A stretch of DNA of 64,000 nucleotides, taken from the NCBI GenBank assembly GCA_030668485.1, contig DAOUTW010000011.1, positions 1 through 64,000 of the forward strand. The letters run 5' to 3'. The notes under the pieces were generated by a model. That model was not told the origin of the DNA. It did not search any database and saw nothing but the letters and a program-made list of their open reading frames with translations. Numbering within the stretch: the stretch's first letter is position 1; each line of letters begins with the position of its first letter. This DNA is from Candidatus Zixiibacteriota bacterium. Its GTDB lineage: Bacteria; Zixibacteria; MSB-5A5; GN15; JAAZOE01. The position numbers and the translations under genes are program-made. Shown here piece by piece: positions 9,407 through 41,197 of the stretch.

Positions 9407-9439
9407 TTTGTTTAGCAGGTAAAGCAATAGCTATAACAG

Positions 9440-11167: not shown

Positions 11168-11173
11168 CAGTCA

Positions 11174-12124: not shown

Positions 12125-12296
12125 TCCCGGAGGGTTACCGACTCGGGTCAGCAACGCATAAACGACGATAACTTAAATGATTTGAAGATAGAATTGATAG
12201 TTTAGTCATGGGTTGTTTTGCACGCCGGAAGCGGAAGATTAAAATTAACTCTGGCCGCCATTATTCAATTATTTAAACTGGTTGGGATTATCTGAA

Positions 12297-12983
12297 TCAG
12301 GAACCGATGATCAATTTGTAGCCCTTGCCATGGACATTTATTATCTCCACACGGGGATCATCCTTAAGATATTTGCGCAATTTGGAAACGAAAACATCCA
12401 TACTCCGGCCGCTGAAATAACCTTCGTCTCCCCAAATCTGCCGCAGTGCAATATTACGCTCCAGGGTGCGGTTTTGATGGAGACACAGCAATCTCAGGAG
12501 TTCCGATTCTCGCGACGTCAGTTTTACGGTCTTACCTTTCCCCACCAGGACCTGCTTGGAACTATCAAAAGTAAATCGCCCGATTTCAAATTCGCTCCGC
12601 CCATCGTCCCGGTTGGTTCCCTGCACTCGCCTAAGGACCGCCTGAATCCTCAGGAGTAATTCCTCGACGCTGAATGGCTTGGTGATGTAATCGTCGCAGC
12701 CGATTTTGAAGCCCTCGATTTTATCCTCTTTCAGCGATTTGGCGGTGAGGAAAATCAAGGGAATATCGGAATCTTTACGGCGGAGTTCTCCGGCAAAGGT
12801 AAAGCCGTCTATTTGGGGCATCATGATATCGGCCAGACACAGGTCGAAACTACCTTTTTTAAAAACGGCCAACCCCTCCTTGCCATTAACACAGAGCGTT
12901 ACCTCATATCCATTCAACTGGAGATGCTCCTGGACTATAAAACCCAGATTGGGATCATCTTCAACCAGCAGAATTTTATACAT
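12297..12983 (-). CDS. OmpR-family DNA-binding response regulator
   Basis: MYKILLVEDDPNLGF receiver, LADIMMPQ, KPFSVEELLLR; winged-helix C-term ..SMDVFVSKLRKYLKDDPRVEIINVHGKGYKL. Confidence 0.93.
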   Translation of the reverse strand: MYKILLVEDDPNLGFIVQEHLQLNGYEVTLCVNGKEGLAVFKKGSFDLCLADIMMPQIDGFTFAGELRRKDSDIPLIFLTAKSLKEDKIEGFKIGCDDYITKPFSVEELLLRIQAVLRRVQGTNRDDGRSEFEIGRFTFDSSKQVLVGKGKTVKLTSRESELLRLLCLHQNRTLERNIALRQIWGDEGYFSGRSMDVFVSKLRKYLKDDPRVEIINVHGKGYKLIIGS

Positions 12984-14694: not shown

Positions 14695-14852
14695 GGTGCT
14701 AATATAGGTTATTTTGAAATATCGCGCACCCCTATTAACATTTCTTAACATATGGTAACATATCTTAACTACGACTTCGGAAACTTCTTCTTTATCTATA
14801 CAGTAGAAATAAGCAAGCAAAACAAAACCAGTCTCAAGGAGGATATCTTCAG

Positions 14853-15623
14853 ATGAAAAGCTACTTGAATTCAAGCACATCAACCTTTGCCCGGTTGACA
14901 GTAATGGTCATTATCCTGTCATTGCTGAGCATGTCAGTTGCTTTTTCCCAGAAACGCACCATAAAATTATCCGGCGACCAGGACATGTTCATGCTAAAAG
15001 AGCTGGGGGCGGTTGTCACTGATTCCGAAAATGGTTTGACGGTAATGATGGTTATGCCCGGTGAGCACCGAGCCAAGGCCTACCAGGATGTCAACCTTCT
15101 TGAAGGCGACATTATTATGATGGCCAATGGCAAGAAAATGAAAAATGTCGGCCAGCTTGAAAAGCTGTATGAGAGTCTGAAAATCGGCGGCGAAATCAAA
15201 TTGGGATTAAAAAGGGGTAAGGAAATGATGATCGAATCCCTGACCAAAGCCGATCCCGATGATTTGCCCGGTGAGATAATGATGATGAAAAAGGGCGATG
15301 ACGACGGTTCCATCAGCACCGCCCTGGTCGATGCCGGACTTATCTTGAAGGATGACAACGGGAAATTCATCGTCGAGGATTTCATCGAGCAAATGGCCGA
15401 TAAAATTACCGGCCCTACGCCTGAAAGAGGCGACGTCCTGGTCAAAATCCAGGGAACCGTCATTACGAAGTCAGCGAAGATAAGCGATATATACTCAGAA
15501 ATAAAGGCCGGTGAGAAGGTCGATCTGGTCCTCGATCGCGCCGGTGAAGCCATTAACATCAGTTTCACCAAGCAGGAATGTGGTGGCGACAAGCCCTTAA
15601 TCATTAAAAAACAGGGACATTAA
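14853..15623 (+). CDS. Secreted/periplasmic PDZ-domain protein (two PDZ-like modules)
   Basis: RBS aaggagg at ~14836; signal peptide; repeated GDIIMMANGKKMKNVGQL.. and GDVLVKIQGTVITKSAKI.. patterns. Confidence 0.75.
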   Translation: MKSYLNSSTSTFARLTVMVIILSLLSMSVAFSQKRTIKLSGDQDMFMLKELGAVVTDSENGLTVMMVMPGEHRAKAYQDVNLLEGDIIMMANGKKMKNVGQLEKLYESLKIGGEIKLGLKRGKEMMIESLTKADPDDLPGEIMMMKKGDDDGSISTALVDAGLILKDDNGKFIVEDFIEQMADKITGPTPERGDVLVKIQGTVITKSAKISDIYSEIKAGEKVDLVLDRAGEAINISFTKQECGGDKPLIIKKQGH

Positions 15624-17129
15624 ATGTCGAAATCATTCACCCTGCGCCTGACATTGGTAATCATCTTGATCGGTCTGTTTTCGGCCGCGGCTACGGCGCA
15701 GACATACAATCCCTTCAATCAACGCGACGACCAATATCGGCTGCTGGGATTAAAAAGGGCCAAGGAAGCTTTCGAAGTCGCCCGTACCGAATACGATCGG
15801 CAAAAGAAGCTTTTTGAAAAGGAGTTGATCACGCAGGCGCAGTTGGATCGCGCCCGAATGATCTTCTCTGATGCCGAGGTCAACTACCAGCAATCGCTGT
15901 TGGCGGTCCTATTCGAGAAACAGTACATATCCGTATTTTCGGCAATAAAATATCATAGCGAGGACGGCACCAGACATGTCCGTTTGACGCTGGCCAACAC
16001 TTCCGGAGGTACGGAAGAGTTCCGCAAGTTGATAAATATTGACGATGAACTCTTCCGCACCCTGCAGCCCGACGTCATTAACAATGTTTACGCTTCACTA
16101 CTGAACGACGACAATGCCGTCATCGGCCAGCCATATGAATGCAAAATATCGATGCTTCGCTACGGTGAACCGCAGACGGTCGATTTTACCCTGCTCCAGG
16201 ATGTGGATGCCGCAACCATCTTTCTGGTTTACGGTAACGGAAGTCAGCGCAGCATAAAAATATTCCTCCAGAAAGATGCCACCGTGGACATGGTCGCGGT
16301 GCAATCGGAACAGTTTTCCCAGGAGGTTGATCTCGGCAATTCCGCCTACTACGACCTCACTCTGGAGTTATTCAGCGGCGTGAGCAATACCTATTCGCTG
16401 GAAGTGGTCAATTTGCCGCGGCAAATCAGCCGAGTGTTCAAAAGTGCCTCGAGACAGGTCAGCCTCCGTCAGGTAAAATTCAACGAGAGCAGCCGCACCA
16501 AACAGGCGGTTTTGGAAATCACTCTTCCGGACCGCGCAGGCAGTGAAGTCCTGATGGATGAATCGGTACCGTTTTATGTCCTGGCGATTCCCAATCAGAG
16601 AAAAGCGGAGATACCGGACCTGCATACAAAAACCTGGACCGAAACCGAATTGAATGAACTGGAGATCGGATTCGTCAGGCTGGAATTGCTGCCCCGCGGT
16701 AAAGGCAAACTGGCCGTACGAGCGCCCCAGTTGTTCCATTCCATGCTGGCCGGAGAGACAGCCGAGATCACCATGGAACTGATCAATGAAGGCAGTCGAC
16801 GACTTGATTATATCGAAATCAAAGCAGATCCGCCCTTGAACTGGACCAAAAGCATATCACCAACGATTGTCCCCGCCCTTGATATCGGCGAGGAAAAAAA
16901 GATAGTCCTGGCCTTCACCCCCCCCGAAGATATTGCCGTCGGGAAATATGAAGTGCGTATAGAAACATCCGGATTGACGAACGGACAGCCCGTAACCGGA
17001 AGCGATAAAATTGCCACTATCGAGATAAGGGCCGGTAGTAATATTGTGGGGACGGCTTTAGTGGTCCTGTTTATTATAGTGATCGTCGGGGGAGTCATAA
17101 CTTATGGAATCCGCCTGTCGCGGCGGTAG
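15624..17129 (+). CDS. Membrane-anchored protein: HlyD/MFP-like coiled-coil segment followed by NEW3/COG1470-like Ig repeats and C-terminal TM
   Basis: ARTEYDRQKKLFEKELITQAQLDRARMIFSDAEVNYQQS; LLAGETAEITMELINEGSRRLDYIEIKADPPLNWTKSISPTIVPALDIGEEKKIVLAFTPPEDIAVGKYEVRIE; C-term TM. Confidence 0.65.
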   Translation: MSKSFTLRLTLVIILIGLFSAAATAQTYNPFNQRDDQYRLLGLKRAKEAFEVARTEYDRQKKLFEKELITQAQLDRARMIFSDAEVNYQQSLLAVLFEKQYISVFSAIKYHSEDGTRHVRLTLANTSGGTEEFRKLINIDDELFRTLQPDVINNVYASLLNDDNAVIGQPYECKISMLRYGEPQTVDFTLLQDVDAATIFLVYGNGSQRSIKIFLQKDATVDMVAVQSEQFSQEVDLGNSAYYDLTLELFSGVSNTYSLEVVNLPRQISRVFKSASRQVSLRQVKFNESSRTKQAVLEITLPDRAGSEVLMDESVPFYVLAIPNQRKAEIPDLHTKTWTETELNELEIGFVRLELLPRGKGKLAVRAPQLFHSMLAGETAEITMELINEGSRRLDYIEIKADPPLNWTKSISPTIVPALDIGEEKKIVLAFTPPEDIAVGKYEVRIETSGLTNGQPVTGSDKIATIEIRAGSNIVGTALVVLFIIVIVGGVITYGIRLSRR

Positions 17130-24582: not shown

Positions 24583-26754
24583 TTATTCATAGCATCCGCC
24601 GCATGGCGCTTCGCCTCCGCGGAAGGTGAAATCGATCAGGAGGACGGCATCACCTACATTTACATCACCGTCGCAATTTACATCTCCGGCATTTATCGGA
24701 TCGGGAGCAGTACCGCCTTTGAAGATATATGATATCAAAAAGACGATATCGGCCACATCAAAGTCTCCGGCGCCATTAGGACCGGCACAATCACCCTGCT
24801 TAAGGCAAAGGAATCCATTGTCGCAGGTGACATAAATGTTATCGCCGACAACATCCACATCCCAGACCCAACCCGGATAGGTGCTGTACTTGCCTGCCAG
24901 CACCGGTGATTCGGGTGAGCTGATATCGAGGATTTGAAAACCATACACATATGCCGCGACATAAAGATAATTGCCGACCACCTCAATATTACGAGCCAGG
25001 TCAAACCCCAGATAATCTCCAATAAAAACGGGGTTTTGAGGATCACTTACCTCGAAAATACCCAATTGATTATGATAGTCATAATTGACGTAAGCATAAT
25101 TGCCCGAAACGGCAATGGCAGTGGAATACCCGGGAAGGTCGTAACTGCCTTCAACTACGGGTGCGAGCGGATCGCTTATATTGATGATTCTAAAGCCCTC
25201 TTCTCCACCCGACAAATATGCATAATTACCCTGAATCGTCATACGATAGCCATAGCCCAAGTCTTCGAAGCTGCCGGCCAGAGCCGGTGCCTGCGGGCTC
25301 GAAACATCATAAACGAGCAAACCGCTATCTCCCGCGATAGCATAAAGGTAAGAACCCCATGCCAGTAAGTCGTTCAGATAATTGTTCGGAGTGGCAAAAG
25401 ATTCCAGATGAGCCGGATTGAGCGGGTCGGAAACATCGAAAACCATAATACCGATATCACGGCCGCCCAGGTAAATATAATCCCCCACCAGTTCAATTGT
25501 CCTGGCATCACCGGGAGTATCGTACGATGCAACCAACTCGGGATTTTCACTATCGGAAAGGTCAAGAACCTGCATCCCCCTGATTCCGTTCGCCATGAAA
25601 CCGTAATTCCCCGAAATAACCAGATCATAACCCATACCCGGATTGACATACGCGGCGTCCACCAGAGGAACCTCGGGAGATGAGATATCATAGCGTTCGA
25701 TTCCGGCGGTCCAGTCAGACACAAAAGCATCATCGCTTGAGACGTACATGGACGTATTAAAACCCTGTGTGAACCAATCGGCAACGTAGAAGGGATTGCC
25801 CGGATAACTTATATCAAGGATTTTGATCGTGTTATTGTCCAGCAGATACAGATAATCACCGGCAAGTTCAACATCAGTATACCGTTCCGTAGTATCTACC
25901 CAGGTGGCTTGCGTGGTAGGAAATCCTGTCCCTCCGACGTATAGCACATGAAGACCCAGACCACGACTGGCCACGAATAAATAGTTCCCCTGATGCTCCA
26001 CATCATAAGCATCCCCGCCGCACGGTAAATTGCCCATATATTCCGGTGACATCGGATCGGAAATATTCCATACCGACAAGAAAAATTCAGAAGCGATATA
26101 GGCAAAGTCACCGTCTATAACCGAGTTCATGGCCAGACCTTCAGGATCGAAATAATTGACCAGCACCGGATTAGTCTTATCGGAAATATCGATGATGAAA
26201 TAGGACATATGGCCGCTGAGATAGGCATAATCGCCGACGATCTCAACCCCGGTCGCAGTTGGAGACCCCCACGATGACAGACCATCGGTGCTAAAAGTAC
26301 CTGTCAAAAAAGGCGCATAGGGATCGGATACATTAAAAATCATCAATCCCTGATAACCGACCACGTAGACAAAATCGCCGACAAGAACCATATCGCGAGC
26401 CTGCGAGGGATGATACAATTGGGCAATGATGACCGGCGAGGAAGGATTGGATAGATCAATAACCTGAAATCCAAAATACGGATAACAATATGCCAGATCG
26501 CCGTCTCCGACAACCGCATAAGTGCCTTGCCACAATGAGCTGCCACTATAACTGACCGAGAACTCCAGCACCTCGTCGCCGCCCAGTTTCGTAAAATCTT
26601 CACCAAATCCTTCAGATTCGGGTGTATCCGCCGATCTTTCGCCGCTCGGTTGTATTGTTAAGACTTCAGCCTGAGCCGTAAATGATAAAAAAATGAAAAT
26701 AAATAGCGTGACCCCTAAGATAAATCTTGTTCCCTTGCGCATGCGCCCTCCCAT
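24583..26754 (-). CDS. Secreted LVIVD-repeat beta-propeller protein with C-terminal dockerin
   Basis: Repeated GDYAYLSGG..G..IIDISDPxxPxxxG; C-term DVNCDGDVNVGDAVLLIDFTFRGGEAPCGGCYE. Confidence 0.87.
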   Translation of the reverse strand: MGGRMRKGTRFILGVTLFIFIFLSFTAQAEVLTIQPSGERSADTPESEGFGEDFTKLGGDEVLEFSVSYSGSSLWQGTYAVVGDGDLAYCYPYFGFQVIDLSNPSSPVIIAQLYHPSQARDMVLVGDFVYVVGYQGLMIFNVSDPYAPFLTGTFSTDGLSSWGSPTATGVEIVGDYAYLSGHMSYFIIDISDKTNPVLVNYFDPEGLAMNSVIDGDFAYIASEFFLSVWNISDPMSPEYMGNLPCGGDAYDVEHQGNYLFVASRGLGLHVLYVGGTGFPTTQATWVDTTERYTDVELAGDYLYLLDNNTIKILDISYPGNPFYVADWFTQGFNTSMYVSSDDAFVSDWTAGIERYDISSPEVPLVDAAYVNPGMGYDLVISGNYGFMANGIRGMQVLDLSDSENPELVASYDTPGDARTIELVGDYIYLGGRDIGIMVFDVSDPLNPAHLESFATPNNYLNDLLAWGSYLYAIAGDSGLLVYDVSSPQAPALAGSFEDLGYGYRMTIQGNYAYLSGGEEGFRIINISDPLAPVVEGSYDLPGYSTAIAVSGNYAYVNYDYHNQLGIFEVSDPQNPVFIGDYLGFDLARNIEVVGNYLYVAAYVYGFQILDISSPESPVLAGKYSTYPGWVWDVDVVGDNIYVTCDNGFLCLKQGDCAGPNGAGDFDVADIVFLISYIFKGGTAPDPINAGDVNCDGDVNVGDAVLLIDFTFRGGEAPCGGCYE

Positions 26755-27163: not shown

Positions 27164-27613
27164 TCAGGACCCGATAAGCTCCTTGACCCTGGCCACCACC
27201 AGTTCCGGATCGATCGGTTTATCAATAAACATGTTGGGCTTTATCAATCCCTCGTCCCGCATCTCCCGGATCGATTTGCGCATCGCTTCCCGTAAGGCAT
27301 CAAACGGTTTAACATCGTCGTCCTCGGTCTGAGTATCAAGACCCTCGAGTACCTCCGCGACCCCGGTCAACATTATAACCGGAAGATCCTTAAACTCGTC
27401 GTCCCGGCGAAGCTGCTTAAAAAGCACAAAACCGGTTTTCTTCGGCATCATAACATCAAGCACCACCAGGTCCGGATGTTCACTCCGTATCTTTTCCAGT
27501 CCATCCTTACCGTTAAGCGCCGACAGGGTCTCGTACCCATTCTCCTTCAGGGCCGTGGTCAGGAATTTGACCGTATTTTCATCATCGTCTACTACCAAAA
27601 CCTTTTTTGCCAT
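27164..27613 (-). CDS. Response regulator (stand-alone receiver)
   Basis: MAKKVLVVDDDENTVKFL, LVVLDVMMPKKTG, phospho-acceptor region; no output domain. Overlaps the kinase gene end by ~30 bp. Confidence 0.9.
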   Translation of the reverse strand: MAKKVLVVDDDENTVKFLTTALKENGYETLSALNGKDGLEKIRSEHPDLVVLDVMMPKKTGFVLFKQLRRDDEFKDLPVIMLTGVAEVLEGLDTQTEDDDVKPFDALREAMRKSIREMRDEGLIKPNMFIDKPIDPELVVARVKELIGS

Positions 27614-29057
27614 CGATGATCTCCTTGCTTCTGCTGTTTTCATCTATGGGAAGCACGATGCGAAAGACCGTTCCCTTGTCAGGTTCCGATTCCACATCGA
27701 TTTTCCCGCCGTGGACATCAATCATTCTCGAAGTTATCGACAAACCCAGGCCGGTGCCGGCCTTGCTCTTGGTGCTGAAAAACGGTGTAAATATATGGGC
27801 AATTATATCTTCGGTCATACCGCAGCCGTTATCCCTAATCTCGATTATCGCCTCCTGCCTATCATTATCGGTATAGGCCGACATGGTCACCTCAGGAATC
27901 TCCACTTCGCCATATTCTTTCCAGAAGCAGGCATCCAGGGCATTGGAGACAATATCCATCACCGCCGAATGAATCATCTGCGCATCACAGGAGATATGCG
28001 GCAGCTCCGGCACGTCCTTCAGACTAAATCTGATCCCTCTCTCCTTGGCCGACCGGCCGATAACTTGATCAATACCCGATAACGTTTTATTCAGATCAAC
28101 CTGATCAAATCTTGGTTTCCACTCTTTGACATATTTTAGCATATTCATCGACATGTCGGTCATGCGGGTGATACCTTCCTGGACGATTTGCCACCCTTCC
28201 TCAAGCATTTTCCGGTCATCCTTTTTCAGACCGGTTCTGACCATATAAGCGCCCCCGGTGCAGGCATTCAGCATATTCTTCATCGAATGCTGAATTCCGG
28301 TGAATACCTGACCGATAGCGACAAACCGTTCCGACTGCATCCATTGTTTCTGAAGCCTCAATTCCTCGGTTATATCTTTACTTATGCCGATTGTGCCTAT
28401 GATTTCCCCCGTTGAATTGCGCAGCCGTGAAAGAGTGAGCAGCACATTCCGGGTTTCGCCGCTTTTGGTTAGAAATTTGGTCTTGAAATTAACCACATTG
28501 TCGGTGAATCTCAATTTGGCAATGGCTACCTCACGGTCCTGTGGATTGAGAAACAGTTTTGTTACCGGTTTTCCGATCACATCACGGCGCCGATATCCTA
28601 AAGCGTTTTCGGAGCCGGTATTAAAAGTCCTGATATTTCCCGAGGGTGTTACCGTAATGATAATATCAGCCGAGCTTTCCAGAATCCCATGCAGGTAATC
28701 TCTGGTTTTATCAAGCTCGGTCAGCGAGGATGTAAGCATATCCGCCATGTCGTTGAAGGAAGAGGCCAGCGAGCTGAATTCATCCGTCCCTCTTTCATCG
28801 AGCCGAAACTCAAATTCCTTTTCCGCCAGGCGGTTCATGCCGTTGGCCAACTTTTCAACAGGTTTTTTAACAAAATAAGTCGTAAAAAACCAGGCCGATC
28901 CGAAGGCAAATGCCACAGCTATTATAACCCCCGCCAGAACGGCCGAGATTCCCGGAGGAACCAGATTGGTTGCAATATCCATAGTCATCATGGTAATCAC
29001 GATGATGACCATGAAGGTCACAATCAGTTTCCAGAAGATGTTAATGCGCTTAAACAT
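27582..29057 (-). CDS. HAMP-PAS sensor histidine kinase
   Basis: TM segments, HAMP region, PAS (LESSADIIITVTPSGNIRTFN), H-box GIQHSMKNMLNA, HATPase DNGCGMTEDI..GTGLGLSI. Confidence 0.9.
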   Translation of the reverse strand: MFKRINIFWKLIVTFMVIIVITMMTMDIATNLVPPGISAVLAGVIIAVAFAFGSAWFFTTYFVKKPVEKLANGMNRLAEKEFEFRLDERGTDEFSSLASSFNDMADMLTSSLTELDKTRDYLHGILESSADIIITVTPSGNIRTFNTGSENALGYRRRDVIGKPVTKLFLNPQDREVAIAKLRFTDNVVNFKTKFLTKSGETRNVLLTLSRLRNSTGEIIGTIGISKDITEELRLQKQWMQSERFVAIGQVFTGIQHSMKNMLNACTGGAYMVRTGLKKDDRKMLEEGWQIVQEGITRMTDMSMNMLKYVKEWKPRFDQVDLNKTLSGIDQVIGRSAKERGIRFSLKDVPELPHISCDAQMIHSAVMDIVSNALDACFWKEYGEVEIPEVTMSAYTDNDRQEAIIEIRDNGCGMTEDIIAHIFTPFFSTKSKAGTGLGLSITSRMIDVHGGKIDVESEPDKGTVFRIVLPIDENSRSKEIIDGKKGFGSRR

Positions 29058-29120: not shown

Positions 29121-30353
29121 TTACCCGTGAACCTTCATCTCCCTCGGTCGGCTCGGCACTTCCTTCGACGGCGTATGCACGTCTATTCTGGCCTCGGTGG
29201 GAAGTAGTTTCATGTATTTCAACCCCCAACTGAACAAAAATCCGATAGCGCCAAAGACCCCCAGGGCTTGCAGCACTTCGAGAAAACTTATGGAATAAGT
29301 CGCTATCCCCTCCTCGATCACTGAACTTGATATCTCTATCCCGGGAAATAGTTCGGGCGGATGAGTTAACCCCGGAATGACAATTACATATCTTTCGCAA
29401 AGGACTCCAAAGACTACCATCGCGGACGCAATGACAATCCACTTGATCGATTGCCCGGTCTTCTTCCTGAAAAGTATCAACAACGGTATCCCGCATCCGA
29501 CTATCACCAGCCCGAACCAGAAGAGAATGCTGTGCAATCCGCCGAACAGATAATAAACGGCCGCGTCGCGCAATTCGACCACATAAGCCCGATAGGCGTT
29601 CTCCATTACAAGGAAATAGACCACTACCAGAAGACAGATTGCCAGAAACCGGCCCAGCCGGACAATCAGTACATCATCCACATGCCGCTTGGTTATTTTG
29701 AACAGGCCGACAATTAGTAATATCATCAGGGCCGTTCCCGATGCCATCGCCGCCGCGACAAAGGCCGCCGGCAACAATGGCGATTCATAAAGTACCCTTG
29801 CGCCAAATCCAAAAATCGCTCCCGTTCCGCTATGGACACAAAAAGCCCAACCAAATGCCAGTGTTGCCACGACAGTTGTCAGTTTCTTTCTGTTGGTGAA
29901 CAACGCCCACAGATAAACTATACAGATCAGGATATGCCCGATATACAATATCGGATTGATCGAAAACATCGATTGAAGATTGAAATAAACAAATGGCTCG
30001 ACAAAGACCCGATCCATTCTCCCCTGGTCGGTCAGGATCGACAGAAGTCCGGCTATCAGAAAAAGCATCGCCACATAGACGGCAAGCCGCGCAAACGGCT
30101 TGTACTCGGTTTTCCCAAAAACGCCGTAGAGACCGGATATTACCAGTGACCCGGCCGAAAGGCCGATATAATAGACCGCCATCACGATTTGAAGCCCCCA
30201 CGGAACCCGGCTGGTCATTCCGGTCACCCAGATTCCTTCTTCTATCACCACCCAGGTAGCGATCAGTCCGGCAATCACTGCTGCCGCAAAGGCAAACATC
30301 ATCACCCGGTATTGCGTCGATCTTCCTTCAATCCGTTCAAATTCGATTTCCAT
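29121..30353 (-). CDS. dsrP: DsrP/NrfD-family quinol-interacting integral membrane subunit
   Basis: ~10 TM helices, NrfD/PsrC family pattern, directly downstream of DsrJ- and DsrO-like genes. Confidence 0.78.
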   Translation of the reverse strand: MEIEFERIEGRSTQYRVMMFAFAAAVIAGLIATWVVIEEGIWVTGMTSRVPWGLQIVMAVYYIGLSAGSLVISGLYGVFGKTEYKPFARLAVYVAMLFLIAGLLSILTDQGRMDRVFVEPFVYFNLQSMFSINPILYIGHILICIVYLWALFTNRKKLTTVVATLAFGWAFCVHSGTGAIFGFGARVLYESPLLPAAFVAAAMASGTALMILLIVGLFKITKRHVDDVLIVRLGRFLAICLLVVVYFLVMENAYRAYVVELRDAAVYYLFGGLHSILFWFGLVIVGCGIPLLILFRKKTGQSIKWIVIASAMVVFGVLCERYVIVIPGLTHPPELFPGIEISSSVIEEGIATYSISFLEVLQALGVFGAIGFLFSWGLKYMKLLPTEARIDVHTPSKEVPSRPREMKVHG

Positions 30354-30375
30354 ACCGTCACCTCTCGGTACCGGC

Positions 30376-31116
30376 CTACAGGCCGACGTAATATACTTTC
30401 GGCTCTGTACCCAGATCTTCTCGGATACGTTTCACGGCATTGCTCGCAATCAAGCTTGAAACATTGCTTTCAGGATCATTGAGATCACCGACATATATCG
30501 CCCCTGCACCGATCGCATTACATGCCTCGACACAGGCGGGCATCTCTCCCTGATCCAGACGATGGGCGCACAGGTGACACGCCTCGGCTACCCCATGAGA
30601 TCGTTTGGGGCGTTCCTTATTGGGCCACTCTTCATTATCCCTGAAATTAAAACTACGCGCATTATACGGGCAGGCAATCATGCAATACCGGCAGCCGATA
30701 CATCTATGGTGATCCACGATGACAATACCGTCATCTCGTTTATAAGTCGCCCGCACCGGGCAGACCTGTGCGCAGGGCGGCTTATCGCAATGATTACAAA
30801 GCAGTAAAATCGATTTCTCGCCGACTCCGGGATTATCTTTCTTGTGAAGACCGACTTTCCTGATCCAGTGTATATCCCAGCGATCGTCGCCGAATAAAGC
30901 GACATTATTTTCATGCCGGCAAGCATCGAGGCATGCCGTACAACCCGGCTTGCATTTGTTGAGGTCTATCACCATACCCCACCTGTGCCCGGTGGTCACG
31001 ATTTCATCACCTGCCAGGCCTTCGCCGGGAGTGGTCAGGATACGAAACGCGTAGGTAGACGAAACCCCCGCAAATATCGTTCCCCCGGCAACTTTCATAA
31101 AATCTCTTCTTTCCAT
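30376..31116 (-). CDS. dsrO: DsrO-like periplasmic ferredoxin (four Cys clusters) with Tat-like signal
   Basis: MERRDFMKVAGGTIFAG Tat-like start; CKPGCTACLDAC, CNHCDKPPCAQVCP, CIGCRYCMIACP, CHLCAHRLDQGEMPACVEAC. Confidence 0.8.
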   Translation of the reverse strand: MERRDFMKVAGGTIFAGVSSTYAFRILTTPGEGLAGDEIVTTGHRWGMVIDLNKCKPGCTACLDACRHENNVALFGDDRWDIHWIRKVGLHKKDNPGVGEKSILLLCNHCDKPPCAQVCPVRATYKRDDGIVIVDHHRCIGCRYCMIACPYNARSFNFRDNEEWPNKERPKRSHGVAEACHLCAHRLDQGEMPACVEACNAIGAGAIYVGDLNDPESNVSSLIASNAVKRIREDLGTEPKVYYVGL

Positions 31117-31131
31117 CTAGCAACCCGCTTT

Positions 31132-31506
31132 CTACGGATAATGATGACACTCGAAACAATCCGGTGTCATGCTCACAGCATCATGGCATTTATCGCAAAA
31201 CTTTTCTCGGTTCTTATGGCAATCCTGGCATTTTTGCAGGCTTATATCGCCTCGTTTCCCATACCGCACGACTTCTTCCCGGACATATCGCAGGAGTTCC
31301 CAGTGATGGTATCTCATATATGTTGCATCCCGGACACATTCCTCAAATTCCGAATCCGCTTTTTCAAGAAACAACGGCGCATCATTTACATTTCCGGCCA
31401 TAAGAGAAGCGACGGCACTATATCCGAAAGGAAAAAGAATAAACAGCACCGGGATCGCCACGGCAAGTATCCTGATTTTACCGCCTAATATCTTATTGAT
31501 ATTCAT
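31132..31506 (-). CDS. dsrJ: DsrJ-like triheme cytochrome c
   Basis: Signal anchor; ECVRDATYMRYHHWELLRYVREEVVR, a DsrJ signature including the Cys proposed as heme ligand; three CxxCH (CQDCH, CDKCH, CFECH). Confidence 0.85.
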   Translation of the reverse strand: MNINKILGGKIRILAVAIPVLFILFPFGYSAVASLMAGNVNDAPLFLEKADSEFEECVRDATYMRYHHWELLRYVREEVVRYGKRGDISLQKCQDCHKNREKFCDKCHDAVSMTPDCFECHHYP

Positions 31507-31527
31507 TATCTCCTCCGCACCGAAAGT

Positions 31528-32853
31528 TTATTTCGCTACCGCCTTTGTTTGTTCCTCCGCATCGATTGTGTCCCGTTGCAGTAAATTATCTCCATTTACT
31601 CCCCCAACAGAAGTCCGGCCGGTATATTCGGCAAAAACAAGGGCCGTTGTCCGATAAACCAAATGTGCCAGCTTGGAATAGGGAAGGTAAATCAGGACCG
31701 TGAAGGCAAAAACCAGATGGACAAAATAGGCCAGATGCCGATGCGGTTCCAATCTCAGATAATGCAGCGCTTCCGTCATGAAACCGGTAACTACGACCAT
31801 CGACAAAGTCGCAATAAGAGACCAGTCGAAATAGGAACCGGGGCCGACCAATTCGTCGTTTCTGAACCGGTCCCACATCATCAAAACCAGGCCGGTTAGC
31901 AGAGCAATTCCGCCCAGGTTGGCAAGTATTTTCCAAGGACTCAAAAATCCGAACGGATAAATGAAATCGCCCCGAACCATCGGATTTATTTTTGCCGTGA
32001 TCACCCATAAAGAAACCGCGGCCAGAGCCAGGAAGCCGAAGAAGACACACAGATGAGAAACGTAACGCGGCCGCGCAATCGTACATTGATCGAAATTGTC
32101 ATGGATAAAAACCGTTTTCAAAGTGCTGAGGATACTTGCCCCCAATCCTCTGGCCGGGTTGACATATCGTTCCCGTGGAATCGTCGACTTCATCGCTCGC
32201 CAAAATCGCAGGATCCCTGATATAACAACGATAAGCGTCAGCAGACTGAAGAAAGCAAAGAAACTGTTCAACATCCAGTGGGGAAACATGCTGGAATATG
32301 TAAAAAGAATCTGCCCGTCAAGGCTTCGAGTAATGCCCAGCGCATCTTCGATCGGACCGACCAGAAGAAGAGCCAGCGCAAGTAATGCTACCGGGATACC
32401 CAGCAATAGAGGGATAAACTGCGGCCGCTGCATCCAGCGGCCGAAAAAGCTCGGCGCCGAAAAGTTGACAATGCACTCCTGACGTATTGCCGCGAGTACT
32501 TCGCCCGGGCGTGCGCTCCGAGGACATCTGGCGGAACAGTCATTGCACTGATAGCAGAGCCAGATATCGCTGTCTCTAAGGAGACGATCTTTCATCCCCC
32601 ATCTGGCCCAGGCAAGGTCCTTTCGAGGGAAGGGATTGACATCCGAAGAGAGCGAGCATGTGGCCGAGCAGGTACCGCATTGCATGCATTTCATGAATGC
32701 ATCGCCGCTCCGCCGGCCAATTCTCCTGACGAAATCGGAATCCGGTTCGACCAAAATCGGCTGACCGTTTTCAAAACAACCCGGTATCGCCGGCGTATTG
32801 CCCTGCTCCCGGTGTGCCGACTTTTCCTGCAATGTATTCCTGGCAGCCTCCAT
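31528..32853 (-). CDS. qmoC: Quinone-modifying oxidoreductase subunit QmoC (HdrC-like FeS domain fused to heme-b membrane domain)
   Basis: CMQCGTCSATCSLSSDVNPFPRKDLAWARWGMKDRLLRDSDIWLCYQCNDCSARCPRSARPGEVLAAIRQ followed by six TM helices with conserved His. Confidence 0.9.
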   Translation of the reverse strand: MEAARNTLQEKSAHREQGNTPAIPGCFENGQPILVEPDSDFVRRIGRRSGDAFMKCMQCGTCSATCSLSSDVNPFPRKDLAWARWGMKDRLLRDSDIWLCYQCNDCSARCPRSARPGEVLAAIRQECIVNFSAPSFFGRWMQRPQFIPLLLGIPVALLALALLLVGPIEDALGITRSLDGQILFTYSSMFPHWMLNSFFAFFSLLTLIVVISGILRFWRAMKSTIPRERYVNPARGLGASILSTLKTVFIHDNFDQCTIARPRYVSHLCVFFGFLALAAVSLWVITAKINPMVRGDFIYPFGFLSPWKILANLGGIALLTGLVLMMWDRFRNDELVGPGSYFDWSLIATLSMVVVTGFMTEALHYLRLEPHRHLAYFVHLVFAFTVLIYLPYSKLAHLVYRTTALVFAEYTGRTSVGGVNGDNLLQRDTIDAEEQTKAVAK

Positions 32854-32923
32854 TGTAATAATTCCTCCGGTTACTGCCCCGAATTTTCCCAGCGGGAATC
32901 TGCCGTCGCTCTCTACATGCTGA

Positions 32924-35197
32924 TCACATTCCCTTAAATGGGTTCATTCCGAATTGTTCGATTACCTCCTTATGGAAGTTTTCGAATATCTCCGGGATTC
33001 TATAATATTCATTTATCTGAAGCTGATGAAGTTCCACTCTCTCGTTCTCCATCGACATCTGTTGCAATTTTTCCCTGATATTTTCGCCGCGGTAATCCGC
33101 GAGTTCGCTCCCCTTGATAAAATGACATTGATAATCGTCGCCGTATTTGCATCCGATCATTATCACGCCATCATATCCGGCCGATATCGCCTCGGTCACC
33201 CAAACCGAATTGACCGACCCCAGACATCTCACCGGAATAATCCGGACAAACGGGTTGTATTGAAGGCGATGTTGTCCGGCCAATTCCAGCGCCGGAATGG
33301 CGTCGTTCTCACACATCAGCGCCAATATTCTCGGCTTTTCGTCATATTCCTCCGGCACCACGACCGCCTTGATCATCGAGGCTACCATATCAACCGTATA
33401 ATCCTTGAATGACACGATTCTCTCGGGACATGCCCCCATGCAGATCCCGCAGCGGCGGCATCGTGTGGCCTGAAGCAACGGTGTTCCTTTTTCATCCTCA
33501 TTGAGAACCCCGAACGGGCATTCCTCGGTACATCGCTTGCATTGGGTACATTTCTGCAAAAAGAAATCGGGATACGACTTATCACCGGCGCGAGGGTGCA
33601 CAGCTTCTCCCCTTGAGGTCATCTCAACGCATTGAATCGCTTTCAGCGCCGCTCCCGCTGCATCCTGCCTGCTACCAAGACCATCCATAGGCTGACGCAC
33701 ACATCCGGCTGGATAAATCCCGGTCCGCCTGCTTTCGTATGGAAAACAGATAAAATGCGAATCGGGGAAACCGTATTCCAGAGCTGGTAGATCAGGCCCC
33801 TGGCGATATCCCAAATTAAGGATTTCTGTCCCCTCATGATGCTTGAGTTCCTCTACCTTCTTGGCTGCCTCGCCCCGCTGAATATCCGATTCTCCTTCTT
33901 TGACGGTTACTTTCGCCTCCTCCAATGCCCTGATCATCTCGCCGTCGGCTGAGTTAGGTTTCATTCCCGCTGCAAGAACTACGAGATCGACCTTAACCCG
34001 AATCTGTTCACCCGGCATGGTGTTTTTTGCTGTCACCTGCAGAGTTCCGTCATCCCCGGCCGTTATCTCTGCGACCTCTCCCCTTGTGAAATAAATATTG
34101 GGATCTTCCTGGACCCTGCGATAGAAATCCTCAAACTGCCCGGGTGTGCGGATGAATTCATAAAATATGTAAGCCTTAGCATCATCCCCCTGCCCACGCA
34201 GGTATAACGCCTGCTTAAGAGTATTAAGGCAGCATATCGACGAGCAGTATGAATGATGTTCTTTGGCTCTTGATCCGCCACATTGTATGAACGCGATATT
34301 CTTCGCCTCTTTGCCGTCGGACGGACGCGTTATCCGCCCCTGTTCTTTTATCATCGCCTCCAGATCGACATTCAGAATGACATTATCCAGCTTTCCATAT
34401 GGAAGATTATCACGGGGATCGGTCGGTTTCCACCCGGTAGCCTGGATAATGGAACCGACGCGAAACTGATCAACCATTTCGCTCGATGTCCCATTACCGT
34501 TAGATGACAAAGTAACATCGAATAATCCGGGCGCTCCGGAAATCTTACTTGTATATGATGAGGTATAAGTCTTAATCCTGGGATTGGCTTCGATTTCCGC
34601 AAGAAGCGCATCGATTCCGGTATCCTCCAATTCCCGAAACGGCGGCTTGGTGGGAATTGACATATGCTGCTTTGCCAGCCAGCCGCCCAATTTATCGGAT
34701 TTCTCTACCAGTCTGACTTCATATCCGGCGCGAGCGGTGTCAAGCGCCGCTGTCATTCCGGTAATGCCGCCTCCTACAACAAGAATGCTTTTATCAATCG
34801 TCTCTTCCGATTGAAAAGGCTCCACAGGTTCGGCTTTCTGCACCTTCACGATATACATGCGAATGTAATCCGCAGCCATCATCTGAGTGTCTTCATCATT
34901 CGGCGGCTGGCACCACACCACATGTTCCCGCATAGCAACTTTCTCAACGATAATTTCCTGAGGAAAATCGTTTTCACGATATTGCCGAGGAGAAATCCCG
35001 GCGATGACAACTTTATTCAGCCCCTCTGATTTGATATCTTCATTGATCGCTTTCAGCCCGGCGCCTTCGCATGACTCCACCGTCTTGCAGTATGCAACGT
35101 TGTACTCATCCGTTGCCACCTTGCACAGCGCCTCGATATCCAGCGCCTCCGCTATCCCGTATCCCGTGCAGATAAAAACACCGATTTTATCTTCCAT
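32924..35197 (-). CDS. qmoB: Quinone-modifying oxidoreductase subunit QmoB (HdrA-like flavoprotein with C-terminal MvhD domain)
   Basis: VVGGGITGMTAALDTARAGY; CTQCKRCTEECPFG..CRRCGICMGACPE ferredoxin; MvhD-type RCLGSVNSVWVTEAISAGYDGVIMIGCKYGDDYQCHF. Confidence 0.92.
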   Translation of the reverse strand: MEDKIGVFICTGYGIAEALDIEALCKVATDEYNVAYCKTVESCEGAGLKAINEDIKSEGLNKVVIAGISPRQYRENDFPQEIIVEKVAMREHVVWCQPPNDEDTQMMAADYIRMYIVKVQKAEPVEPFQSEETIDKSILVVGGGITGMTAALDTARAGYEVRLVEKSDKLGGWLAKQHMSIPTKPPFRELEDTGIDALLAEIEANPRIKTYTSSYTSKISGAPGLFDVTLSSNGNGTSSEMVDQFRVGSIIQATGWKPTDPRDNLPYGKLDNVILNVDLEAMIKEQGRITRPSDGKEAKNIAFIQCGGSRAKEHHSYCSSICCLNTLKQALYLRGQGDDAKAYIFYEFIRTPGQFEDFYRRVQEDPNIYFTRGEVAEITAGDDGTLQVTAKNTMPGEQIRVKVDLVVLAAGMKPNSADGEMIRALEEAKVTVKEGESDIQRGEAAKKVEELKHHEGTEILNLGYRQGPDLPALEYGFPDSHFICFPYESRRTGIYPAGCVRQPMDGLGSRQDAAGAALKAIQCVEMTSRGEAVHPRAGDKSYPDFFLQKCTQCKRCTEECPFGVLNEDEKGTPLLQATRCRRCGICMGACPERIVSFKDYTVDMVASMIKAVVVPEEYDEKPRILALMCENDAIPALELAGQHRLQYNPFVRIIPVRCLGSVNSVWVTEAISAGYDGVIMIGCKYGDDYQCHFIKGSELADYRGENIREKLQQMSMENERVELHQLQINEYYRIPEIFENFHKEVIEQFGMNPFKGM

Positions 35198-35201
35198 GGA
35201 A

Positions 35202-36464
35202 TCACTCTCCTCCGTTGAGGTATTGCACCGCTTTCATGACCGCCGCCGTCGAATCTTTTGTCGCTCGGGAAACATCGCACGGATGTCCGGCACAACCGGC
35301 TGCGTACACCCCTTCGATTCCGGTCGATCCGTCAATAAACCCATACTCATCGTATTTCAGATCAATAGGAAGCTTCAGGTCGGCTAAGTTGGGTACAATA
35401 CCGGTGGCCAGAACCACCATATCGAACTTCTGATGCAGGTTATCTCCCGAGATTGTATCCTCGACATCAACTGTTAAATCCCCGTTGCCGGAGTCTTTGT
35501 GAATTTCGGCCGCTTTGCCTTTGATGAAAGTAACATGTTCATCTTCCAGCAAATCATAATAGAATTTTTCGAGACGCCCCGTAGTTCTGATATCAATATA
35601 AAAAATCGTCGCCCGAGCGTTCTCATTCTTTTCCCGCAGATATCTGACCTGTTTCAATGACCCCATACAGCATACGGCCGAGCAATACGGGAGATGATTA
35701 TCGTCCCGCGATCCGGCGCATTGCACGAAGGCCACATTCTCCGCCTTCTTGCCGTCTGATGGCCTGATTATCTCCCCCCCGGTCGGACCGGTCGGAGCCG
35801 CTATTCGCTCCATGATAACATTGGTAATCACATCCTGATATTGCCCGAAACCGAGATTATCAAGTTTGACCGCGTCATATGGCCGCCATCCGGTCGCGAC
35901 AATGACGGCGCCGACATCGACTTCGATCTCATCCTCCCTCATATCGAGATCAATGGCCCCTGCCGGAGAAGACTCCCGCAATTTTGCCGCATCTTCATCG
36001 GAAAGCGCCTCTCGATCAAGGACATAAGTATGAGGATACGCCATCGGATGAGGCATATAAAGCGCCTTGGTTTTGGCCATCCCGAGATTGAAATCGTCCT
36101 CCCTCTCGGATGTCATTTGTTCGGCCAGTGATTCGTCAATTGAATACTCCCCGGTCACATATCTCGGCCTTACTTTAATTATCGCTCTAAAGTTTCTCGC
36201 CTTGGGAGTAATTGATTCCAAAGTCGCCATAGTGTGTATCGCTATGCGTGGATTTTGCCTTATCCGGCGGACGTTTATCTCAAAACCGCAAGTAGGCGGA
36301 CACATTTTTGGGAAATACCGATGGGTCCGCATAACACGGCCGCCGAGATAGGCCTCCTTCTCCACCAGGATGACATGATACCCGACTTCGGCCGCTTCCA
36401 CGGCCGCTGTCATCCCAGCGATTCCCCCCCCGATCACAAGAATAGGTTTAGCACTAGCATTCAT
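35202..36464 (-). CDS. qmoA: Quinone-modifying oxidoreductase subunit QmoA (HdrA-like flavoprotein)
   Basis: KPILVIGGGIAGMTAAVEAAEVGYHVILVEKEAYLGGRVMRTHRYFPKMCPPTCGFEINVRRIRQNPRI; 4 bp upstream of qmoB. Start at MNASAKP (36462-36464). Confidence 0.92.
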   Translation of the reverse strand: MNASAKPILVIGGGIAGMTAAVEAAEVGYHVILVEKEAYLGGRVMRTHRYFPKMCPPTCGFEINVRRIRQNPRIAIHTMATLESITPKARNFRAIIKVRPRYVTGEYSIDESLAEQMTSEREDDFNLGMAKTKALYMPHPMAYPHTYVLDREALSDEDAAKLRESSPAGAIDLDMREDEIEVDVGAVIVATGWRPYDAVKLDNLGFGQYQDVITNVIMERIAAPTGPTGGEIIRPSDGKKAENVAFVQCAGSRDDNHLPYCSAVCCMGSLKQVRYLREKNENARATIFYIDIRTTGRLEKFYYDLLEDEHVTFIKGKAAEIHKDSGNGDLTVDVEDTISGDNLHQKFDMVVLATGIVPNLADLKLPIDLKYDEYGFIDGSTGIEGVYAAGCAGHPCDVSRATKDSTAAVMKAVQYLNGGE

Positions 36465-36874: not shown

Positions 36875-37288
36875 ATGCCGGAAATAGTGAAAAGAGTAGA
36901 GTATTTTTATGCTGTCGTCGAAAATGTACCGGGCGAGGCGCGCCGTCTCCTGGAATTCTGCAGCGCCCACAGCGTCAACCTCGTGAATTTTACTGCCTTT
37001 CCAATCGGCGAAGGCAGAGCCCAACTCGACTTCTTCCCTGCTAATACGGAAAAGCTGATCACCGCTGCCAGTGAAGCCGGAGTCCCTCTGGTAGGCCCCA
37101 AAAAGGCGTTTATGATATGTGGCGCCGATCGAGCCGGAGTTTTGATCGAGTATCATCTACGGCTGGCCGATGCCGGCATTAACCTCTATGCATCAAACGG
37201 CACCACCGATGGTCATGGAGGATTTGGTTATGTCCTTTGGGTAAAGCCGGAGGATTACGAAAAAGCCGCCAAGGCGCTGGGAGTTTAA
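36875..37288 (+). CDS. Small tandem ACT-domain-like protein
   Basis: YAVVENVPGEARRLLEFCSAHSVNLVNFTAFP.. and ..DRAGVLIEYHLRLADAGINLYASNGTTDGHGGFGYVLWV. Confidence 0.7.
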   Translation: MPEIVKRVEYFYAVVENVPGEARRLLEFCSAHSVNLVNFTAFPIGEGRAQLDFFPANTEKLITAASEAGVPLVGPKKAFMICGADRAGVLIEYHLRLADAGINLYASNGTTDGHGGFGYVLWVKPEDYEKAAKALGV

Positions 37289-38447: not shown

Positions 38448-38711
38448 CTATTTAATGGGAATATCAGGACTCCATGCCGGCGGTGGCGGAAGGGGCGTTC
38501 CCTTCATCACATTACTGAACGCCTCCAGGATTTGGGACGGGCTGGCAACCTGATTGTATCTCATGAAATCGTCGAGCTTACTCATTTCATCCGGGGATAA
38601 CTCCCATTCCTTTGATTTCAATGCGTTGTGATGATCCTTCAACAGGGCTTCACGGAACGAGTCATCCTGAAGTGATTCCTGAAATACATCCATAAATCCT
38701 TTCTGCAACAT
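38448..38711 (-). CDS. Short leader-like peptide (NHLP/Os1348-like) with Pro-rich Trp-containing C-terminal tail
   Basis: MLQKGFMDVFQESLQDDSFREALLKDHHNALKSKEWELSPDEMSKLDDFMRYNQVASPSQILEAFSNVMKGTPLPPPPAWSPDIPIK; ATG at 38709-38711, 20 bp after the kinase stop. Confidence 0.6.
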   Translation of the reverse strand: MLQKGFMDVFQESLQDDSFREALLKDHHNALKSKEWELSPDEMSKLDDFMRYNQVASPSQILEAFSNVMKGTPLPPPPAWSPDIPIK

Positions 38712-38731
38712 GATCTTTTCCCTTTCTTTTA

Positions 38732-41197
38732 TCAATAAGGCTGTCTTCGTAGCGACATCAGACGGTTTTGAATCTTATCCGCATCGCCGCAGGCCGAGTC
38801 CCGGATCAGGTACTCGGTATAGTACTTCACCGCATCGGTCGTATCGGCCAGAGAGTCATGGATTATCCCCAGCATGCGATAAGCTGCCGTGCAATTGGAA
38901 TCAAGGGCCAGAACCGCCTGAAACTCACCACAGGCTTCATCCCAGTCCTTTCCGAGAAATAGAAGTTGCCCCAGTTCGCTGTGAAACGCCGGTTCATCCG
39001 GCTGCGACAAAACTGCAGACTTATAACAACGAATCGCATCGTCGTCAAGATCCATGGATAAATGACTGCTTGCCAGGGAGGCATATACTTCACCGCGACT
39101 TTTCCCCCTGGCATCAAGATCGTGGATATACGTTTTCTCATATCTATCCGCCGCGGCGCTATCCCCTTCCCGCAGGGCCACACCGGCCAGGATTCCATAA
39201 GTATGCTCATACACCGGAGAAATTGATAATGAACGTTCCAGTATCTGCCGCGCCTTTGAATAATCACCGAGTCGGCAGTAAGTAATTCCAAGGAGATAAT
39301 ATGCCGGAGAATATCTCCATTCATTTTTAATAGCGGGCCGCAACGCCCCGGCCGCTTGCTCAAACTCCTCAAGCGTATAAAGCGAACGCGCCAGTTCATA
39401 CAAAAGAACATTATTGCCCGGTGAATATTCCAGCGCCAGGATAAGTGAGTTTGCCTGCCGGCGGGCATCGCTATCGATCAAAGCCCCGGCCCAACTGATC
39501 ATCGCCTGTTCGAATGGATTCGCCTCATGCTCATATTGAAGAAGAACCGCATAATGAGGACGCGCTTCCTCAATTGCTCCATGCATTACCAGACCGGAGA
39601 TCAGATAAATGCGCGGAGCAATAAACGTCGAATCGAGATTTAGAGCACGAGTCAAGTATCGCCCCGAACCGGAAATACCGTTGAATATGAATTCATTAGC
39701 CTGCATGAACGCCTTCAGGGCCTCCAGATTCTGACTCCGATACGACAGCCAGGGTCTGAGATCCAGATCATAATCCTCATGCAAAATTATAGTCTGAAAA
39801 TAGCCGAGAATGTCGCTCGATAGAGAGTCGACAACCTGAGCCAAGGTTTCCTCTCCGCCGGCATTTCCCACACATGAATGGACTACTTCCCCTGCGATTG
39901 GCTCGATAATCTTGGCATGAAGCTGAAACCCGGTTCCCGCTTTTACAATGGTACCGTCAATAACATAAGAAATATCGGCTTCACGCAAAACTCGATAAAG
40001 ATCCCGATTGCGCGGCGGAGGTACGGTGTCGAACCTGCTCTGAAGGATTGCATTGAGGCTCAACGGATCGACAATCCCGATATCGGCGATACCGGTGAGG
40101 TTTCCCACCAGTAAAACCTGAATGAGCGAAGGCCAACCTGACAACTCCTCCTGCGACGTTTGATTATGAAAAGGCAATATCCCCACCCGCCATGCATTCC
40201 GTTCGGGCGTTTTCGCGCTGTCAGGAAGATAAACGCGCAAGACCCAGGCAAAAACAACAATGAATATCATCGATAGCAGAACCAGCATCAGCTTTTTAAT
40301 ACGCTGGTTGTCGCCTCCTTTACGTGCGATTACCTGCGTTGCCGAATCGACTCCCAGGATATCCAGGACCTCGATCATCGATTGCGGTCGTTTGCTCGAC
40401 TTCTTCTCAATACAGCGGCGGTATAAGGTCTGAATCGGATAAGGAATATCATCACGCACCCGGGAAATATCGGACGGACTCGAATGAGTAATTGAATATA
40501 TGATCTCCTGAGCATTTTCACCTTCAAAAGGAAGTTTCTGTGTGAGCATCTTATATATCAGCACGCCGAGTGACCAGATATCGGTCCTTAAGTCAACCTC
40601 GCCTCCGCTTATCTGCTCCGGCGAACTATACCCTAATGTTCCCATGACCAGCTTGGAGTGGGTCAGGCTATCGCTGTCGGCGACACGCGCCAGACCAAAA
40701 TCGAGAACTTTTGCTCGCCCGTCGCGACAGATACAGATATTGCCCGGTTTGATGTCGCGATGAATAACTCCCAATTCGTGAGCCGCTTGAAGACCGCGCG
40801 CCACCTGAATCATAATTCCGGTCGCCTCATCGGGAGTCAACGCATCTCTTTTGATTCTGGAATCGAGGGTTTCCCCCTGGATATATTCCATGGCAATAAA
40901 GGGTTTGCCCCGATGGTTGCCGACTTCGTGAATTGTGACAATATTGGGGTGATTAAGCCGCGCGGTGGCCTGCGCTTCGCGACGGAATCGCGCCATCGCC
41001 TGCTCGTCATCAAGCAGCCGGTCGGGAAGAAATTTAAGAGCTACCCGGCGACCCAGATCAGTATCCTCCGCCAGATAAACCTCTCCCATTCCACCGGCCC
41101 CTATCTTCTCGATTATCGTATACCTGCCAATAATCGATCCTTCGGTCAGAATGGAATACGAGCGGGTCTGCTCGTCATTATTATCATTTGATTGCAA
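38732..41197 (-). CDS. Serine/threonine protein kinase with TM segment and C-terminal TPR repeats
   Basis: GAGGMGEVYLAEDTDLGRRVALKFL, HRDIKPGNICI, DFGLARV; TM helix LMLVLLSMIFIVVFAWVL; TPR-like repeats. Confidence 0.93.
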   Translation of the reverse strand: MQSNDNNDEQTRSYSILTEGSIIGRYTIIEKIGAGGMGEVYLAEDTDLGRRVALKFLPDRLLDDEQAMARFRREAQATARLNHPNIVTIHEVGNHRGKPFIAMEYIQGETLDSRIKRDALTPDEATGIMIQVARGLQAAHELGVIHRDIKPGNICICRDGRAKVLDFGLARVADSDSLTHSKLVMGTLGYSSPEQISGGEVDLRTDIWSLGVLIYKMLTQKLPFEGENAQEIIYSITHSSPSDISRVRDDIPYPIQTLYRRCIEKKSSKRPQSMIEVLDILGVDSATQVIARKGGDNQRIKKLMLVLLSMIFIVVFAWVLRVYLPDSAKTPERNAWRVGILPFHNQTSQEELSGWPSLIQVLLVGNLTGIADIGIVDPLSLNAILQSRFDTVPPPRNRDLYRVLREADISYVIDGTIVKAGTGFQLHAKIIEPIAGEVVHSCVGNAGGEETLAQVVDSLSSDILGYFQTIILHEDYDLDLRPWLSYRSQNLEALKAFMQANEFIFNGISGSGRYLTRALNLDSTFIAPRIYLISGLVMHGAIEEARPHYAVLLQYEHEANPFEQAMISWAGALIDSDARRQANSLILALEYSPGNNVLLYELARSLYTLEEFEQAAGALRPAIKNEWRYSPAYYLLGITYCRLGDYSKARQILERSLSISPVYEHTYGILAGVALREGDSAAADRYEKTYIHDLDARGKSRGEVYASLASSHLSMDLDDDAIRCYKSAVLSQPDEPAFHSELGQLLFLGKDWDEACGEFQAVLALDSNCTAAYRMLGIIHDSLADTTDAVKYYTEYLIRDSACGDADKIQNRLMSLRRQPY

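Follow-up and report, generated by a model that had tools for sequence, protein, structure and literature searches.

The 64,000-nucleotide stretch analysed here (the window), which comes from a Candidatus Zixiibacteriota bacterium, contains six tightly packed minus-strand genes at 29121-36464, in the order qmoA-qmoB-qmoC-dsrJ-dsrO-dsrP. Thus a Qmo set is joined to homologues of the J, O and P subunits of DsrMKJOP (together, the JOP module), although membrane electron-transfer modules of the QmoC and JOP types are normally encoded apart. The cluster is conserved among uncultured bacteria of many phyla that probably reduce sulfate, and it suggests that periplasmic electrons are carried into sulfate reduction by a respiratory complex of an undescribed type. 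On balance, we think it probable that these genes encode a second Qmo-type complex, built from QmoABC and the JOP module on the plan of DsrMKJOP with QmoABC as the cytoplasmic half, and feeding the adenosine 5'-phosphosulfate (APS) reductase AprAB. The bolder proposal is that QmoABC-JOP is one stable complex, present in uncultured sulfate reducers from eight phyla or more, which unites a periplasmic cytochrome entry, an electrogenic NrfD subunit that reduces quinone and a cytochrome b that oxidises quinol, and so constitutes a whole redox loop driving APS reduction. It is made tentatively, and we would give it somewhat less than an even chance.

The cluster and its genome

The genes from qmoA to P are separated by 4, 70, 21, 15 and 22 bp, and these gaps, the strand and the coordinates are as given in an earlier note on this DNA. 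QmoC passed the NCBIfam QmoC equivalog (358.7 bits, cut-off 300), and qmoC is directly preceded by the genes of two HdrA-like flavoproteins, of which QmoB has an FlpD domain. QmoA and QmoB match HdrA-type NCBIfam profiles below the cut-offs, and they are 63-74% identical to QmoA of the other Zixibacteria clusters and 67-79% identical to QmoB of other clusters, respectively. In the JOP half, O exceeded the DsrO cut-off (292.2 bits, cut-off 200), but J and P scored below those of their families (DsrJ, 74.2 bits, cut-off 100; DsrP, 79.8 bits, cut-off 350).

The same genome (4.5 Mb in 139 contigs, 99.95% complete) supplies a control. Its contig C57 carries sat, aprBA, an ordinary qmoC, dsrMKJOP, dsrC, a dsrL-like gene, dsrN, dsrBA, qmoB and qmoA, and the control proteins encoded there pass all cut-offs (DsrM 538.7, DsrO 309.1, DsrJ 170.1 and DsrP 459.3 bits), so that the low scores of J and P in the window are not due to weak profiles but mark a subfamily of their own. 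Residue C57 of the window J matches the conserved extra cysteine of DsrJ, and C57, M64, H68 and the three CxxCH motifs are invariant alike in J linked to qmo genes and in J linked to dsrMK (MK-linked). P belongs to the NrfD/PsrC superfamily (Pfam NrfD PF03916, 158.6 bits, 3.7e-46), and its nearest named family is DsrP, the genome's other NrfD proteins scoring at most 49 bits; a profile comparison of window-type P with MK-linked DsrP gave an E value of 5e-20 over 354 columns. The P model has ten helices, in keeping with the two four-helix bundles that characterise this superfamily, and ActC of alternative complex III as best fold match (TM score 0.74). The window P keeps Glu-Arg (the ER motif) where MK-linked DsrP has Asp/Glu-Lys, and this Arg/Lys of NrfD proteins is a possible proton gate (PMC8076601). 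With O over its cut-off, the DsrJ cysteine conserved in J and P closest to DsrP, the idea that J, O and P belong to an unrelated NrfD system is unsupported.

The earlier note had described the locus as lacking dsrMK, and had regarded a complete dsrMKJOP elsewhere, combined with JOP proteins from an unrelated NrfD family, as speaking against its reading. DsrM and DsrK are indeed absent beside the window J-O-P, but both are encoded with their own J-O-P on contig C57, which rules out a loss of dsrMK from the genome. Of the two adverse findings, the complete dsrMKJOP is real and J and P are under their cut-offs, but O passes and the unrelated family does not hold. All the genes that the note had proposed to seek in the genome (dsrMK, dsrAB, aprAB and sat) are present, together with the ordinary qmoABC, and the window cluster is the second Qmo set in a genome holding the full sulfate-reduction pathway.

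Furthermore, a histidine kinase and a receiver protein (27164-29057) follow P in the same orientation, and the unit thus exceeds the six genes first described (Table 1). Scans for promoters and terminators found promoter-like sites at chance level and no clear operon ends.

Table 1. Position and basis of the cluster features in the window (aa, amino acids)
Feature	Position	Strand	Basis or remark
qmoA, HdrA-like flavoprotein, 420 aa	35202..36464	-	HdrA2 profile 330 bits, under its cut-off
qmoB, HdrA-like flavoprotein, 757 aa, with two Fe4S4 motifs and an FlpD/MvhD domain at the C-terminus	32924..35197	-	FlpD 1e-35
qmoC, HdrC-like Fe-S domain and six-helix haem-b membrane domain, 441 aa	31528..32853	-	QmoC profile, AlphaFold model
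QmoC residues 361-373 (EALHYLRLEPHRH), helix 5-6 turn with H364, H371, H373	31735..31773	-	diagnostic of JOP-linked QmoC
dsrJ-like, membrane-anchored triheme cytochrome c, three CxxCH, 124 aa	31132..31506	-	DsrJ profile, alignment
dsrO-like, ferredoxin subunit, twin-arginine N-terminus, 246 aa	30376..31116	-	DsrO profile
dsrP-like, membrane subunit of the NrfD family, 410 aa, predicted to have ten helices	29121..30353	-	DsrP and NrfD profiles, model
Histidine kinase with HAMP, PAS and HATPase domains and two hydrophobic segments at the N-terminus	27582..29057	-	conserved downstream of P
Receiver-only response regulator	27164..27643	-	start probably 27613, overlapping the kinase gene

Conservation across phyla and association with aprBA

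In a survey of 132 Zixibacteria genomes, the cluster was present in 10, the window genome included. The QmoC matches in this phylum split into two groups by their identity to the window protein, which is 53-59% in nine genomes and does not exceed 40% in the others, except for one short fragment at 48%. These nine genomes and the window genome share the order qmoABC-J-O-P-kinase-regulator, with the kinase-regulator pair behind P in all ten clusters, one of which ends at a contig end inside the kinase. When a GTDB-based collection was scanned with the P alignment, 32 loci were recovered in Zixibacteria, LCP-89, Calditrichota, Electryoneota, Acidobacteriota, Planctomycetota, Latescibacterota and Gemmatimonadota. 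Taken together, qmoC-J-O-P is contiguous, in the same order and orientation, in 31 of the 35 genomes with this DsrP type; three of the other four loci end at a contig end and at the fourth (L091) a broken, orphan P adjoins the gene of a sigma factor. A chance neighbourhood is ruled out by this recurrence in 31 genomes, and misassembly or contamination of one metagenome-assembled genome is unlikely because the same cluster occurs in independent assemblies of about eight phyla. In Acidobacteriota, any QmoC (E < 1e-60) was found in 20 of 396 sampled genomes, and about five carry one of the JOP-linked type, including two (G246 and G395) that were assigned by QmoC type.

The cluster keeps company with sulfate-reduction genes. 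Ordinary QmoC occurs in all 10 cluster-bearing Zixibacteria and in 37 of the 122 others (Fisher p 1.7e-5), and dsrA in 9 of the 10 and 38 of the 122 (p 3.9e-4), p values that are indicative only as the genomes are related. A second, canonical MK-type DsrO is also present in all 10, and among the 35 genomes with the cluster P type an aprA match was found in 26 and dsrA over the cut-off in 29.

In the trees, which were built without Desulfobacterota, Chlorobi and archaeal references, Qmo-linked J lies across phyla on one side of a branch that separates it from MK-linked J (SH-like approximate likelihood ratio test, SH-aLRT, 99), and the same is seen for O (SH-aLRT 100; quick tree). Both subunits separate by linkage, even though MK-linked copies are present as well in most of these genomes. 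The P tree did not resolve the window P from other NrfD families because of very long branches. The 30 JOP-linked QmoC rows form a clade (99/88) placed with ordinary QmoC of Acidobacteriota and Gemmatimonadota, and inside it the aprBA-linked members branch first and the window type later (27 rows, 100/97); the aprBA-linked QmoA and QmoB lie near ordinary QmoAB. We infer that the join between JOP and Qmo arose beside aprBA, and that a derived, separately regulated copy would then have spread between phyla.

Genes for APS reductase adjoin the JOP-linked Qmo at five inspected loci (L151, L153, L156, L161 and L162). The island of the acidobacterium Ww172 (L151, L152) reads aprB-aprA-qmoA-qmoB-qmoC-J-O-P-dsrA-dsrB-dsrL-dsrC-dsrM-K-J-O-P-dsrN-sat, and the planctomycete SZUA-1497 (L153) has aprB-aprA-qmoABC-J-O-P-sat-dsrC-dsrM-K-J-O. 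In Yes70-25 (L156) the order is sat-aprB-aprA-qmoA-qmoB-qmoC-J-O-P; here qmoABC-JOP (4914-15705) is interrupted by a TauE-family exporter gene, with small genes, between qmoA and qmoB and by a DNA methylase gene between O and P. A second clear QmoC was not found in these three genomes, in which the JOP-linked Qmo stands directly behind aprBA; the one further match in Ww172 has 28% identity only. Two acidobacteria (L161 and L162) have the window-type cluster, aprBA and ordinary qmoAB(C) as neighbours.

JOP-linked QmoC also carries a signature of its own: the turn that joins helix 5 to helix 6 has the motif TE-x-x-HYxRLEPHRH. H364 is present in 30 of 30 JOP-linked rows and in 0 of 36 other rows, this position being Arg in all 35 rows that are not JOP-linked and in one divergent QmoC (L173), and H371 and H373 are found in 29 of the 30. 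By comparison, H192, H251, H267, H379 and H397 are near-invariant in JOP-linked and ordinary QmoC. The AlphaFold model of QmoC has six helices (mean predicted local distance difference test, pLDDT, 64.6), and because the HdrC domain is cytoplasmic and by analogy to NarI, the turn from H364 to H373 should by helix count face the periplasm, close to the outer haem and in the region expected for J and O. Fold searches with this model gave weak matches only (HdrC, NarI, EtfD), and no Qmo or DsrMKJOP chains of use were found in the PDB. The divergent QmoC belongs to a second qmoC-O-P (L173, 2759-6367, and L145) that lacks both J and the histidine motif. This set is possibly a separate or stripped-down version, and the acidobacterium that has it (G137) also holds a window-type cluster.

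Proposed electron path and alternatives

The earlier note had drawn a chain between an HdrA-like flavin module, QmoC and JOP, which fits the conserved order and the extra histidines of QmoC. In the path that we propose, periplasmic c-type cytochromes would reduce the triheme J, and electrons would pass through the Fe-S clusters of O to the NrfD-type P, which would draw protons from the cytoplasm to reduce menaquinone close to the periplasmic face, as has been shown for QrcD. QmoC would reoxidise the menaquinol, its two b haems carrying electrons inward to the HdrC-like Fe-S domain, from which QmoB/QmoA would deliver them to AprAB. Overall, this would amount to a Qrc-Qmo redox loop within one operon, putatively under the control of the kinase and regulator.

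Several observations weigh against this proposal. There is no aprBA beside the cluster in the window or in the inspected rest of contig C83, and an ordinary Qmo is encoded elsewhere in the genome. QmoA and QmoB of the window type make up clades on long stems (SH-aLRT 100), apart from the aprBA-linked types, and therefore their partner may have changed. No match to aprA or aprB was found in three genomes (G138, G140 and G144) whose only QmoC is of the window type; these assemblies are fragmentary or gapped, for example with N gaps inside dsrA, and because of such gaps the absence of aprA in G144 and others was not used as evidence. The acidobacterial qmoC-O-P (L173) does without J and the histidine motif, and the contact among the Qmo, J, O and P proteins is proposed from the genes.

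It could be that the complex forms and that its window-type copy serves a partner other than AprAB (a disulfide, ferredoxin or another HdrA-type client), leaving APS reductase to the Qmo of contig C57. The long-stemmed clades, the kinase/regulator pair of its own and the ordinary Qmo that most window-type genomes also hold, several next to aprBA, would agree with this, as would the lack of apr matches in G138, G140 and G144 if it is not due to gaps. However, the window type is almost confined to genomes with dsr/apr genes, the clusters closest to it in QmoC and JOP are found behind aprBA and two window-type copies (L161 and L162) are next to aprBA, so that we regard a change of partner as rather unlikely. 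Alternatively, JOP could be a separate menaquinone-reactive dehydrogenase, like a small Qrc, co-transcribed with qmoABC for the sake of the shared quinone pool and with no physical joint, since this is how Qrc and Qmo, two separate complexes, work in Desulfovibrio (PMC6303296). The presence of JO(P) together with DsrMK also shows that the module is portable. Nevertheless, the diagnostic QmoC histidines arose on the branch where JOP became linked, gene order and spacing have been conserved in about eight phyla and DsrMKJOP, which includes the homologous module, is purified as one complex, all of which makes separate action unlikely.

Electrons could also flow outward, from sulfite oxidation by a reversed AprAB or from another cytoplasmic reductant to periplasmic cytochromes, for disproportionation or extracellular acceptors. 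Qmo/Apr is regarded as reversible and the genome has large multihaem cytochrome-NrfD complexes (from 62201 of the window onwards), but the same genome holds the reductive set (sat, aprAB, dsrAB, dsrMKJOP) and proton motive force would have to be spent if menaquinol were oxidised with periplasmic cytochromes of low potential as acceptors; outward flow is in our opinion improbable. Finally, the earlier note had suggested that QmoC stands in for DsrMK, which would make the cluster the functional DsrMKJOP of the organism. The local absence of dsrMK agrees with this, but a complete dsrMKJOP is located with dsrC and dsrAB on contig C57 in the midst of a full pathway, and therefore the window JOP does not replace it, and Ww172 has QmoABC-JOP and DsrMKJOP in one island. 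For this genome, the explanation can practically be discarded. If instead QmoABC-JOP is formed as proposed, Qmo should co-purify with J, O and P, JOP would be a portable module and not solely a Dsr accessory and dsrJOP genes in metagenomes would be no proof of DsrMKJOP.

Neighbouring genes and relation to known systems

Some genes around the cluster deserve mention. The kinases of nine related clusters (L059, L077, L078, L079, L080, L082, L084, L086 and L088) have one CxxCH in their N-terminal region, predicted to be extracytoplasmic, which suggests a redox sensor with c-type haem; the window kinase lacks this region. An ACT-like protein (36875-37288, plus strand) is encoded divergently from qmoA and has relatives near the cluster in L052, L058 and L160. 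On the minus strand lie the gene of an LVIVD-repeat beta-propeller protein with a C-terminal dockerin-like repeat (24583-26754) and a small open reading frame (38448-38735) with a weak match, 22 bits and under cut-off, to a Frankia-type family of ribosomally synthesised peptides, adjoining an unannotated 317-aa open reading frame and a Ser/Thr kinase-TPR protein. At the end of the window, a cytochrome with 13 CxxCH motifs (62201-63364) precedes genes for an HmcC/HybB-like NrfD protein and then a DsrO/HybA-like ferredoxin (C83 63372-65518), a set predicted to form an Hmc-like transmembrane complex. A related Fe-S/NrfD pair is located at C51:5335-7050.

By its QmoC profile and gene content, the window cluster classifies as Qmo, and as neither DsrMKJOP nor Qrc. 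It shares with QmoABC the three subunits in their usual order, a QmoC over the cut-off and five histidines, and differs from it by J-O-P followed, in most members, by a two-component pair, by the extra QmoC histidines and by the lack of an adjacent aprBA. With DsrMKJOP it has in common an Hdr-like cytoplasmic part and a haem-b membrane subunit, followed by J-O-P in the same order, with a J that keeps three CxxCH and the extra cysteine and an O over the DsrO cut-off. However, it has neither DsrM nor DsrK, its J and P are below cut-off, its P has Arg at the proposed gate where MK-linked DsrP has Lys, and its J and O lie in separate clades, outside the MK-linked ones (in trees without Desulfobacterota and archaeal sequences).

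Energy conservation at the APS-reductase step of sulfate reducers has long been debated. The published answer is a redox loop of two complexes that act separately in Desulfovibrio, in which menaquinone is reduced at the periplasmic side by QrcABCD, which takes the protons from the cytoplasm and may couple to Qmo (PMC6303296). Qmo-JOP would be an independent solution. Two types of Qmo have been described in a large survey of Dsr, Apr and Qmo proteins, which also mentions DsrO homologues whose function is unclear and whose NrfD neighbours vary (PMC10504309); the latter may include some Qmo-linked O. We found no description of a qmo-dsrJOP cluster in the accessible literature, mostly without subscription journals and without supplements. 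The DsrO and DsrP homologues of the TMH1-DsrOhPh-tetrahaem module of cable bacteria (PMC13047784) are likewise encoded away from dsrMK, with a multihaem cytochrome and in a host with the Dsr pathway, but no qmo genes are reported with them and the cytochrome is tetrahaem instead of triheme. The proposed function is that of the pair QrcABCD and QmoABC, in which a periplasmic multihaem cytochrome with Fe-S and NrfD subunits likewise supplies the menaquinone pool from which Qmo draws. There is no gene like the molybdopterin-family-like QrcB in the window cluster, O and P reach 153 of 400 and 42.5 of 570 bits with the QrcC and QrcD equivalogs, and none of the seven NrfD proteins of the genome is over the QrcD cut-off. 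Unlike Qrc with its hexahaem QrcA, the window cluster has a triheme J, and its J-O-P are encoded in one cluster with Qmo.

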